A stretch of 64,000 nt of DNA, from the NCBI GenBank assembly GCA_020725805.1, contig DYEF01000070.1:33222-97221 (forward strand), given 5' to 3'. The notes beneath the pieces were generated by a model. The model ran no database searches. It was not told where the DNA came from and was given only the letters and a program-made list of their open reading frames with translations. Below are positions 3,124 to 52,586 of the stretch, piece after piece. Every line of letters begins with the position of its first letter. Within the stretch, counting starts at the first letter, position 1. The position numbers were made by a program, and so were the translations under genes. The stretch is from Bdellovibrio sp. (GTDB lineage Bacteria > Myxococcota > SpSt-1050).

Positions 3124-4275
3124 TTACCTCAAAACAGAACAACCGCAACCCCCGTTATCATCCCCGCTTACGGATTCCGAATCCGGCTGTGAAGAATCAG
3201 TAGTTATACCGGCATCTTCAGAATCACCATTTCCGGCATCCGGAACAACAGCCTTTTCATAATAAAACGGAGCCGTCCAGATAACGATTTCATTATTGAT
3301 TCCTATCCTGAGATAATACCATTTATTCGAATCAGAGAAACTGAGCGTAAATTTTAACGGTTCGTCCTTTTTGATATCATTAAATGTCTGAGATACCGTT
3401 CCGCCTGTTGTTATAACATCCACTGATGTAAAGATATCATTCCCGTCGGGGTCAGAAAGCAGCAGTTCACAGTTCACATTCTCTTTATTAAAGATAGTTT
3501 CACCCGCCCATTTTCCTTCACAGAGCCACTTAACTACCGCATTCTTATTACAGGTAGAATATGTTCTTCCATTTCTCAGACCTTCGATGAGATTATCCCT
3601 TGACAAAGACGGGAGCCACACAGCCGCTCTGCAGTCATTATGAGTCCCCCAGTCAGGGCTATGATTATCCTGATTATATACAGGAGAGAGGTGCCAGCCC
3701 TTATCCAGTGCCTGAATGTATGAAAGTTCCTGTCTGTCATCCTTATCAAAAGCAGACTTTACTTCAATAAGCGATATTATCTCATCTACATCTTTTCTGT
3801 ATTCATACTGGTGATAATTGTACATCGGTAAATCCGTATTATAGTCAGGATGATTAAACTGCATAAATGCCGGAGGATACCTCAGAAGCTCTGTATAGAA
3901 TTTATTGATATGGTCATTGATGTAACAGTCAATCGAATAGAAGTGCTCGGTCATAAACATATTGCTGTGATTATAAATCGGTGAACCCCATTCGAATCCC
4001 CAGAGCGTTTCATAGACTCCCTCAACCCTCTCTGAATCAGCAACTCTTATCATCTCCTTCAGTTCATCCTGTGTCAGCTGCTCCATATGGTCTGTCAGAG
4101 CGAAAAAATCCAGTTTTGCCACATCCCTTGCATAGGTATAAGCCTCAAGAGCTGTTCCTTTTCCGTCCGAATGGGAACAGTGTGCGTGGAGATTACCGAA
4201 GTAAACTCTGTATTCACCGGCATTTACTACAGAGAAAGATAAAAGAAACAGTAAAGATATAATAAATTTTTTCAA
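3124..4275 (-). CDS. Exported PHP-domain (CehA/McbA-type) protein with GCxC tail
   Basis: The best start is TTG at 4275. A GGAGG Shine-Dalgarno lies 5 nt before it, and the protein then begins with a classic signal peptide (MKKFIISLLFLL, cut near VNA-GEY). The mature part opens with the metal-binding motif of PHP phosphoesterases, NLHAHCSHSDGKG, followed by FFALTDHMEQ, FNHPDYN and YNQDNHSPDWG, as in the CehA/McbA branch. A hydrolase with a metal centre acting outside the inner membrane is likely; the substrate is unknown. A beta-rich domain (about 240-340) follows. The last 50 residues are an Asp/Ser/Glu-rich linker ending in GGCGCSVLR, a tail shared with the protein at 51.7-52.6 kb. Confidence 0.85.
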   Translation of the reverse strand: MKKFIISLLFLLSFSVVNAGEYRVYFGNLHAHCSHSDGKGTALEAYTYARDVAKLDFFALTDHMEQLTQDELKEMIRVADSERVEGVYETLWGFEWGSPIYNHSNMFMTEHFYSIDCYINDHINKFYTELLRYPPAFMQFNHPDYNTDLPMYNYHQYEYRKDVDEIISLIEVKSAFDKDDRQELSYIQALDKGWHLSPVYNQDNHSPDWGTHNDCRAAVWLPSLSRDNLIEGLRNGRTYSTCNKNAVVKWLCEGKWAGETIFNKENVNCELLLSDPDGNDIFTSVDVITTGGTVSQTFNDIKKDEPLKFTLSFSDSNKWYYLRIGINNEIVIWTAPFYYEKAVVPDAGNGDSEDAGITTDSSQPDSESVSGDDNGGCGCSVLR

Positions 4276-4332
4276 AATCTCCTCCCTGTTGTAATCCAAA
4301 ATATTCCATTTTTAATGATTTGTAAAGACTGA

Positions 4333-50370: not shown

Positions 50371-50475
50371 AAGTATCGTATCCGGCTTAAAACAGATAAG
50401 GGATATCAGGTCTTGCAAGCCTGCGGGAAAATCACACAGATTCTGCTACATACTTTGCGGGGAGTGCAATTTTAT

Positions 50476-50504
50476 TTGACTAAACCCAATTTATCCTATA
50501 TAAA
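50476..50504 (+). promoter_or_regulatory. Promoter of the VKOR-DsbA operon
   Basis: TTGACT (50476-50481) and TATAAA (50499-50504) are 17 bp apart. It sits inside the longer open frame that begins at 50413, so it supports the start at ATG 50554. Confidence 0.72.
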
Positions 50505-50553
50505 ACAGATTGTATTTTTTGATATTGTTCTATCAAAAAGGTCGTATTTCCTT

Positions 50554-51711
50554 ATGAAGAGATGGCAGTATATCACAATTATCATTACAGCCCTTATTGG
50601 GGTCATAATATCTGCTGAACTTACCAATCTGCATCTCAAAGTCCTCTCAGAGCCTGAATATCAGAGTTTCTGCAATATCTCCGAGAGAATAAACTGCGAC
50701 ACGGTAAATTCTTCGAAATACTCAGAAATATTTTCTGTTCCGATAGCACATCTGGGATTTCTGACTTACATATTCATTATACTTCTTGCCTTTTTCTCCA
50801 TGAGGGGTCATCCGCTTTCAGGTCTTCTGAACACCTTTAATCTCTTCATCTTCGTCTTCTGTAATCTGTATTCATTCATACTTTTCTACATATCGCTCGC
50901 CATAATCAAATCTTTCTGTATTCTCTGCTGCGGACTGTATATCGTAAATCTGATACTTCTGGTAACAGCCCTCTTTAATATCAAATCATATTTTACTGTC
51001 AGTATAGCCTGTCCGCTCAGAGGAAACCGCGCCTTTACGATATCGGTAATCTCACTTGCGGTTTTTGCGCTTATAAGCTCCCTTGCACTCAGGTATATCA
51101 CTATCGAGAAGAAGGAAATTAATTCAAAGGCCGCATCCTCCAGAAAGGAAGTCGTATATAAAGACATTGACATATCCGGCTCCTTTACCACAGGAAGCAG
51201 CTCCGCCCCCGTGACAATAGTCGAGATTTCGGATTTCGAATGTCCCTTCTGCCGGAAGGCTTTTTTTACCGTAAAAGAGGCCATAAGCAGATACAAGGAT
51301 AAAGTCAGATTTGTATTCAAGAATTTTCCGCTCGGAACCGAGTGTAATCCCAAAATCCGGCATAATATGCACCCAAATGCCTGTCTTGCGGCCTACGCCT
51401 CCGTGTGTGCCGGTGAACAGAACAGATTCTGGGAGTACATAGACAGACTTATGAGCGGGGAGCTCGGGAAAGAGGCCTATTTCAGATATGCCAATGAACT
51501 CAGCCTCGATATCGAAAAGTTCAGTAGCTGTCTCGAATCGAATTCCGTCAGGCAGTCAGTATCACGCGATATCGAGACCTGTGTCAAATGTCAGATAGTA
51601 AGTGTTCCGACCGTCTTCATCAACGGTAGAATGATAATAGGCGCAAAACCGCTTCAGGAATATCTGATTGCCATTGAAGAAGAACTAAGAAAGGCCGAAG
51701 CGAACAAATGA
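50554..51711 (+). CDS. VKOR-DsbA fusion, disulfide-bond forming enzyme
   Basis: The start is ATG 50554, since the promoter lies upstream inside the longer frame. The first 200 residues are a VKOR membrane domain of about five helices, with loop cysteines C40 and C48 and the active-site C122-I-L-C125. The domain reoxidises a thioredoxin-like partner with quinone. A thioredoxin-fold DsbA domain follows, with C230-P-F-C233 and cis-Pro segment VSVPTVF. The fusion, known in bacteria lacking DsbB, puts both steps in one protein facing the periplasm. Its stop overlaps by 4 bp the ATG of a 30-Cys exported protein, a likely client. Confidence 0.92.
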   Translation: MKRWQYITIIITALIGVIISAELTNLHLKVLSEPEYQSFCNISERINCDTVNSSKYSEIFSVPIAHLGFLTYIFIILLAFFSMRGHPLSGLLNTFNLFIFVFCNLYSFILFYISLAIIKSFCILCCGLYIVNLILLVTALFNIKSYFTVSIACPLRGNRAFTISVISLAVFALISSLALRYITIEKKEINSKAASSRKEVVYKDIDISGSFTTGSSSAPVTIVEISDFECPFCRKAFFTVKEAISRYKDKVRFVFKNFPLGTECNPKIRHNMHPNACLAAYASVCAGEQNRFWEYIDRLMSGELGKEAYFRYANELSLDIEKFSSCLESNSVRQSVSRDIETCVKCQIVSVPTVFINGRMIIGAKPLQEYLIAIEEELRKAEANK

Positions 51712-52586
51712 TTACCGTCAATCTTCTGCTTGCACTCCTTTTCTTCTCTCAGACAGACTGCAACGACGGGATTGACTGTACAGAAGATATCTATGAAAAC
51801 GGAGATTGCAGCAACACACTCATTCAGGGTTACTGCCTTATAGAGAATAAATGCTATAAAACCTACGAGACATCTTCCGACGGATGCGGTATCTGCCTTC
51901 CCCAGAAAAATCCTTACGGATGGAGCAGTAACGAAAATGACGAACTGGAATGTACCACCGACAAAAAGGATGAAAACGGAAACTGTCTTCACATTCTCAA
52001 AAGCGGATTCTGTCTGATTGAACACAGATGTATCACGGACAGGACCGAGGATACGAACGGATGCCGGATATGCAATATATCACAATCTCCCTATGAATGG
52101 ACGAATTACAGCGAGACTACTACCTGCAATGACGGGTTCAACTGCACCAAAAACGACCATTGTGACGGGAAAGGGAACTGTATTGGGGAAGAATACTCCT
52201 GTGATGATGGTATCGAGTGTACCCGGGATTTATGTGACGGAAGCGGCGGATGTATCAACACACTTAAAAATGACTATTGTTACATAAACAACGAATGTAT
52301 AAAAGACCTGTCTGCAAAACCCGGTAATTACTGTATGTACTGCAATGTCCTTTTTGACCAGTACAACTGGACCAACGAAGCGAACGGAAAGAAATGTGAC
52401 GACGGCAATGCGTCGACCGGCTTCGATTACTGTGACGGGAAGGGAAACTGCCGCGGATATACAACTGACCCCTTTTCAGATACTGGAAGCATTCTGTACG
52501 ACACATCGGAAGATTCCGGAAAAACCGATTCAGAAGATAAAACCAGCATTGACAGGGAGGGATGCTCTTGTCATCTGCTTTTCTGA
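51708..52586 (+). CDS. Exported Cys-rich repeat protein with GCxC tail
   Basis: The signal peptide is short (MITVNLLLALLFFSQTDC region). The 292-residue protein has 30 Cys, arranged in repeats of the type CDDGIECTRDLCDGSGG, then YC.INNEC and CxxC before YNWTN, as seen in myxobacterial surface proteins. An acidic linker (DPFSDTGSILYDTSEDSGK and on) leads to the C-terminal REGCSCHLLF. The same GCxCxxLx ending closes the PHP-type protein at 3.1 kb. The start overlaps the VKOR-DsbA stop, and the TolC-like gene begins 25 bp before the end. Its function is not known; binding or adhesion is an inference. Confidence 0.82.
   Translation: MITVNLLLALLFFSQTDCNDGIDCTEDIYENGDCSNTLIQGYCLIENKCYKTYETSSDGCGICLPQKNPYGWSSNENDELECTTDKKDENGNCLHILKSGFCLIEHRCITDRTEDTNGCRICNISQSPYEWTNYSETTTCNDGFNCTKNDHCDGKGNCIGEEYSCDDGIECTRDLCDGSGGCINTLKNDYCYINNECIKDLSAKPGNYCMYCNVLFDQYNWTNEANGKKCDDGNASTGFDYCDGKGNCRGYTTDPFSDTGSILYDTSEDSGKTDSEDKTSIDREGCSCHLLF

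Follow-up and report, generated by a model that had tools for sequence, protein, structure and literature searches.

A helix-less C-terminal cysteine tag on exported proteins of a Myxococcota genus, best read as a reduced MYXO-CTERM signal

Introduction

Can eight residues at the very end of an exported protein act as a sorting signal in bacteria? The question is raised by a stretch of 64,000 nucleotides from a member of the Myxococcota, hereafter called the window, in which two proteins of different families end in nearly the same way. The substrates of the C-terminal sorting systems described to date, which are those of sortase, archaeosortase, rhombosortase and myxosortase, combine a motif with a helix and basic residues (PMC11980579). 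In the MYXO-CTERM proteins, which carry signal peptides, a generic GCGC motif with an invariant Cys comes after a flexible linker and is followed by a transmembrane helix and then by a cluster of Arg residues; cleavage by the CPBP protease MrtX depends on the Cys, lipidation of this Cys has been proposed, and the cargo is carried to the cell surface by the T2SS (PMC11980579). We saw no mention of helix-less tails in the titles, abstracts and passages of the related literature covered here.

Materials and Methods

The window is located within contig C66 of its source genome, G000 (Myxococcota; 3.29 Mb, 115 contigs). The genus is represented by two sequenced species alone, the other being G001, and the nearest relative outside the genus in our comparison is G002, the sole further member of the order included. 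The MYXO-CTERM profile TIGR03901 was run on 39 genomes of the phylum and 14 control genomes, and a strict short-tail pattern was run across 195 genomes of the phylum. Tails were also surveyed at the level of open reading frames (ORFs) in the 378 kb surrounding the pattern matches in G000, which hold 238 ORFs of at least 200 aa.

Results

Two tail proteins in the window

The two proteins and their parts are as follows.

3124..4299, minus strand: CehA/McbA-type PHP metallohydrolase, exported, tail-bearing, 391 aa (NCBIfam NF038032, 82.9 bits against a cut-off of 80)
4219..4299, minus strand: N-terminal signal-peptide-like segment of the PHP protein, with the hydrophobic stretch ILKKFIISLLFLLSFSVVNA; cleavage site judged by eye
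3151..3249, minus strand: Asp/Ser/Thr/Glu-rich linker of the PHP protein, VVPDAGNGDSEDAG...GDDNG; the other 43 tail proteins have the same composition here
3124..3150, minus strand: C-terminal tag of the PHP protein, G-C-G-C-S-V-L-R-stop, from the sequence and the genome pattern search
51708..52586, plus strand: Cys-rich repeat protein, exported, tail-bearing, 292 aa, from the sequence
51708..51755, plus strand: N-terminal hydrophobic, signal-peptide-like segment of the Cys-rich repeat protein, MITVNLLLALLFFSQT, without an obvious basic n-region
52461..52559, plus strand: Asp/Ser/Thr/Glu-rich linker of the Cys-rich repeat protein, TTDPFSDTG...SIDRE
52560..52586, plus strand: C-terminal tag of the Cys-rich repeat protein, G-C-S-C-H-L-L-F-stop, from the sequence and the genome pattern search

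The start of the gene for the Cys-rich repeat protein (51708) is overlapped by four bases by a gene for a VKOR-DsbA-type fusion protein (50413-51711, plus strand), and the two genes are likely to form an operon for oxidative folding.

The tag recurs throughout the genome and is kept in the sister species

The pattern G-C-x-C-x4-stop had 53 DNA matches with TRA stops in G000, compared to 13 with a reversed-pattern control, and 12 with the TAG stop, compared to 4 with the control. Among the matches were at least 44 long ORFs (292-1743 aa) in which an acidic, Ser- and Thr-containing linker precedes the tag, a total taken from the matches and their surrounding regions and hence a lower bound; two further matches at contig ends are partial, and a variant with five residues adds one more. 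In every one of the 44, four residues separate the CxC from the stop, and a CxC occurs at 0-3 or 5-14 residues from the stop in none of the 238 ORFs in the 378 kb surveyed. From the composition of the window, a G-C-x-C would be expected at a single given C-terminal position at a rate of 1.3e-5 per protein, which corresponds to about 0.04 per 3000 proteins.

All but one of the 44 proteins have the full G-C-x-C, and their linkers are rich in D, S, T, G and E. The consensus from position -9 to -1 reads S G C [S/G] C S [L/F/V/I] [L/I/V] [E/F/Y/N/D], with hydrophobic residues conserved at -3 and -2 and a last residue that is E, F, Y, N or D and rarely R or K. Two orthologues related to NF041905 carry five residues after the CxC, and no short tails with a single Cys were found in the flanks of the pattern-matched regions.

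A hydropathy rule identified a signal-peptide-like N-terminal stretch in 43 of the 44 proteins, the last of which is cut at the edge of its region. The proteins belong to many unrelated families and the tail is the only part that they share. Their domains include M36-like, S8, M10 and papain-like proteases, VWA-MopE, purple acid phosphatase, the peptidyl-arginine deiminase family, heparinase/alginate lyase, kelch, amidase and InlB-type repeats, as would be expected of the cargo of a surface-sorting system. A few tail proteins also have an N-terminal lipobox-like Cys (L053:190-5412, L057:5017-7164), and these might be anchored at both ends.

In G001, the pattern search gave 34 matches compared to 7 for the control. 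When tailed proteins of the two species were paired by best match, all 16 pairs had retained both G-C-x-C and the length of the tail; one or two of the pairs may be paralogues. The preceding 40 residues of linker are only about 25-45% identical in most of these pairs and the protein bodies mostly 60-78%; to judge from these alignments, selection keeps the tail.

The initial annotation, which had placed both tails of the window exactly where we find them (GCGCSVLR-stop and GCSCHLLF-stop), proposed a minimal C-terminal signal common to unrelated exported proteins and named two ways in which the idea could fail, namely if no further exported proteins ended in G-C-x-C-x4-stop or if orthologs lacked the tail. 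With at least 44 such proteins in the genome and the tail retained in all 16 matched pairs of the sister species, the genome-wide counts and the conservation support the proposal.

Relationship to MYXO-CTERM

TIGR03901 matched in 30 of the 39 phylum genomes and in none of the 14 control genomes, a distribution that identifies the phylum as the Myxococcota, and the profile search gave no matches in G000 and G001. A transmembrane helix after the motif is absent from the 44 tails, which have only four residues past the CxC, and so is an Arg-rich C-terminal cluster. We also considered a hidden or frameshifted helix past the stop, in any frame, and rejected it, as helix-like stretches were found at 5 of 51 stops and at 53 of 500 random places.

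The initial annotation had set the tail apart from MYXO-CTERM. The comparison does not support this separation: the DNA comes from a myxobacterium, the tail matches the "GCGC" head, and in other Myxococcota the homologues have this head followed by the helix and Arg. One such case is provided by NF041905, "myxosortase-dependent metalloprotease," which two of the 44 tail proteins match. Related metalloproteases of almost all the other genomes read end in GC(x)(C), a helix and RR, and their counterparts in G000 and G001 end helix-less, in NGCSCSILSY and SGCSCSTISY. Both forms occur side by side in G002, where the helix-bearing tails NGCGCASVGAGDDAGLLALLAVLGAALAALRRRR and SCECSAVGVDARG...RRRQ are found beside short ones (GCGCAQVGA, GCSCSAVR, GCSCATVETR, GCGCGAL and GCACSSVGIRERGM). 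The groundwater MAG JACRCP01 has the tails GCGCTTVEL and GCSCATMRVR. The strict short-tail pattern rose above background in G000 (18) and G001 (6) only, out of the 195 phylum genomes. Because G002 is mixed and the pattern exceeds background only in these two genomes, it seems that members of this order became able to do without the helix and that the genus as a whole lost it, keeping a remainder fixed at four residues.

Classical tails of the phylum often lack the second Cys, whereas both are present in all short tails found, an invariance that is partly by construction since the regions surveyed were picked with a pattern requiring both Cys. Short tails were not seen in G003, G012, G035 and G037, which have no TIGR03901 matches; classical helix-Arg tails were found there instead. 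In the deep Myxococcota G003, G012, G024, G035 and G037 (L272-L289), TIGR03901 had few or no matches despite helix-Arg tails after GC, and the profile evidently misses many tails in these lineages that are real MYXO-CTERM tails by their sequence.

The tag shares with the MYXO-CTERM/myxosortase system (TIGR03901; MrtX, MrtC, MrtP; NF040914) its occurrence in the Myxococcota, the exported proteins, the acidic/Ser/Thr linker, the GC(x)C head, the dozens of substrates per genome, the Mrt_core protease, the T2SS secretin and overlapping cargo (NF041905). It differs in that there is no helix or Arg cluster, in the four residues past a CxC with both Cys, and in a protease whose scores do not reach the cut-offs of the named Mrt types. 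Our preferred reading of the tag is that of a reduced MYXO-CTERM devoid of the transmembrane helix and the Arg cluster.

Protease, secretin and lipid transferase genes

G000 and G001 each encode one CPBP protein (PF02517), an enzyme of the type that had been suggested as a thing to look for. It scores 117.9 bits in G000 and 109.6 bits in G001 against Mrt_core (NF040914, "myxosortase family intramembrane protease"; cut-off 100), and its catalytic motifs EExxxR, His and HxxxN are invariant (E127 E128 R132, H167, H203 N207). The scores for MrtX (83.3 versus 180 bits), MrtC (135.7 versus 195) and MrtP (160 versus 250) are under the equivalog cut-offs, and therefore the match to a substrate is not given by the family. 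The G000 protease is just above the cut-off for MrtJ (78.7 versus 75). The JDVT-CTERM/MrtJ system (NF033192) also pairs a Cys-containing tag with an Mrt-type protease, but it is a two-gene, single-substrate system of beta- and gamma-proteobacteria (PMC11980579), whereas here there is one protease and dozens of unlinked substrates. A PDB sequence search with the protease alignment gave no match.

The orthologue in G002 adjoins the same neighbor gene as in the genus. The myxosortase gene adjoins, convergently, an ispD-ispF-like fusion gene for isoprenoid synthesis (L079:313-2127 on contig C2 of G000; L082 on C109 of G001). The T2SS secretin GspD was identified in G000, above its cut-off.

Tandem lgt paralogues were found in the arrangement ileS-lspA-lgt-lgt in all three genomes (L136:6626-8923 on C105 of G000, L142 on C81 of G001 and L143 on C382 of G002). 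In the first copy, about 40 residues are inserted, and the paralogues separate into clades only in part. The pair, which is also present in other families of the Myxococcota, could possibly provide a dedicated transferase for the C-terminal Cys, a suggestion that we offer as a lead only. A second lgt is not a requirement, because genomes with Mrt and a single lgt match exist (G003, G033 and G037). On the same contig of G001 as the tandem pair (C81, L142:6217-8490), we observed a gene for a secreted protein in which three stretches of Kazal type occur together with a protease-inhibitor domain of the antistasin type, which is unusual for a bacterium.

Discussion

We hypothesize, with a probability of roughly 70%, that the tag is a reduced MYXO-CTERM signal whose Cys is lipidated and whose end the myxosortase trims, on proteins that reach the cell surface through the T2SS. 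The tail protein would first be exported by Sec, and the next step would be lipidation of one or both Cys at the outer face of the inner membrane. Thereafter, the one CPBP protease of the myxosortase family would trim the last residues past the lipidated Cys, much like Rce1 acts on the CaaX box, and the T2SS would carry the protein, folded and anchored by its lipid, to the cell surface. The linker and the G-C-x-C head would have been kept, while the helix and the Arg cluster would have shrunk to four residues of the type S-hydrophobic-hydrophobic-x. We infer the action of the CPBP protease on the short tails; the lipidation of Cys, the trimming of the last residues and the anchoring to the surface by lipid are suggested by analogy with the MYXO-CTERM model and with Rce1. 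It counts against the model that it requires a tail devoid of a helix to be brought to a membrane enzyme.

A bolder formulation, for which we consider the odds to be about even, is that a sortase-type signal which lost its helix in evolution has become a true exported CaaX-like box of eight residues, with one or both Cys of G-C-x-C lipidated and subsequent trimming by a protease of the CPBP/Rce1 family. Like the CaaX box, the tag is short, C-terminal and helix-less and pairs Cys with two aliphatic residues, and a protease of the CPBP superfamily is at hand. However, the substrates are exported here, and a Cys exactly three residues from the end, like the prenylated Cys of the CaaX box, was not found in the 44 tails, in which four residues follow the second Cys. 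The C-x-C near the C-terminus also recalls the double-prenylated CxC ends of Rab proteins, which are eukaryotic and cytosolic, a likeness that is one of resemblance alone. The presence of both Cys in all short tails would fit a double lipidation that replaces the helix.

An unlikely variant is that a tail derived from MYXO-CTERM receives lipid at the CxC, perhaps on both Cys as in the Rab proteins, but is no longer cleaved. Two lipids would then replace the helix and the CPBP protease would serve another purpose. The two Cys of all short tails, the second of which is often absent from classical tails of the phylum, speak in favor of this variant, and without a helix there is little need for cleavage. 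On the other hand, the pattern itself demanded both Cys, and an uncleaved stub needs neither the conserved length of four residues nor the pair of hydrophobic residues; moreover, the genome's one CPBP protein is still a myxosortase.

We give somewhat less credence to a role that does not involve lipids, in which the CxC would be a redox or metal site, a point of cross-linking to a surface partner through a disulfide or thioether, or simply a recognition tag for the T2SS. CxC pairs are able to form disulfides or bind metal, a VKOR-DsbA protein is encoded in an apparent operon with one of the tail proteins, and the T2SS is present, yet such a role leaves the homology to MYXO-CTERM, the retained myxosortase and the hydrophobic residues at -3 and -2 unexplained.

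It is very improbable that the tag arose independently and merely resembles the head of MYXO-CTERM. The lack of a helix, of Arg and of TIGR03901 matches could be taken as signs of a separate origin, but homologous proteins bear one form or the other, G002 has both, and the type of linker, the cargo and the protease family are all the same as for MYXO-CTERM. Coincidence, which the initial annotation had allowed for and which could hardly be argued against from two tails alone, has a negligible probability and can be dismissed by the counts (44 tails versus about 0.04 expected), the fixed spacing, the conservation between two separately assembled genomes and the random-level frequency of helix-like stretches just past the stop.

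A reduced MYXO-CTERM signal is of interest in several respects. Current annotation misses the tail proteins, none of which are found by TIGR03901. A genus that has kept the myxosortase and dozens of substrates, and yet is helix-less, shows which part of the signal may be essential, and the mixed tails in G002 offer an evolutionary series. The short tail represents a minimal substrate for the question of whether the Cys is lipidated before cleavage, and the tag links bacterial sorting to the CaaX logic of Rce1. If it is indeed an exported CaaX-like box, its eight residues would constitute a minimal sorting signal.
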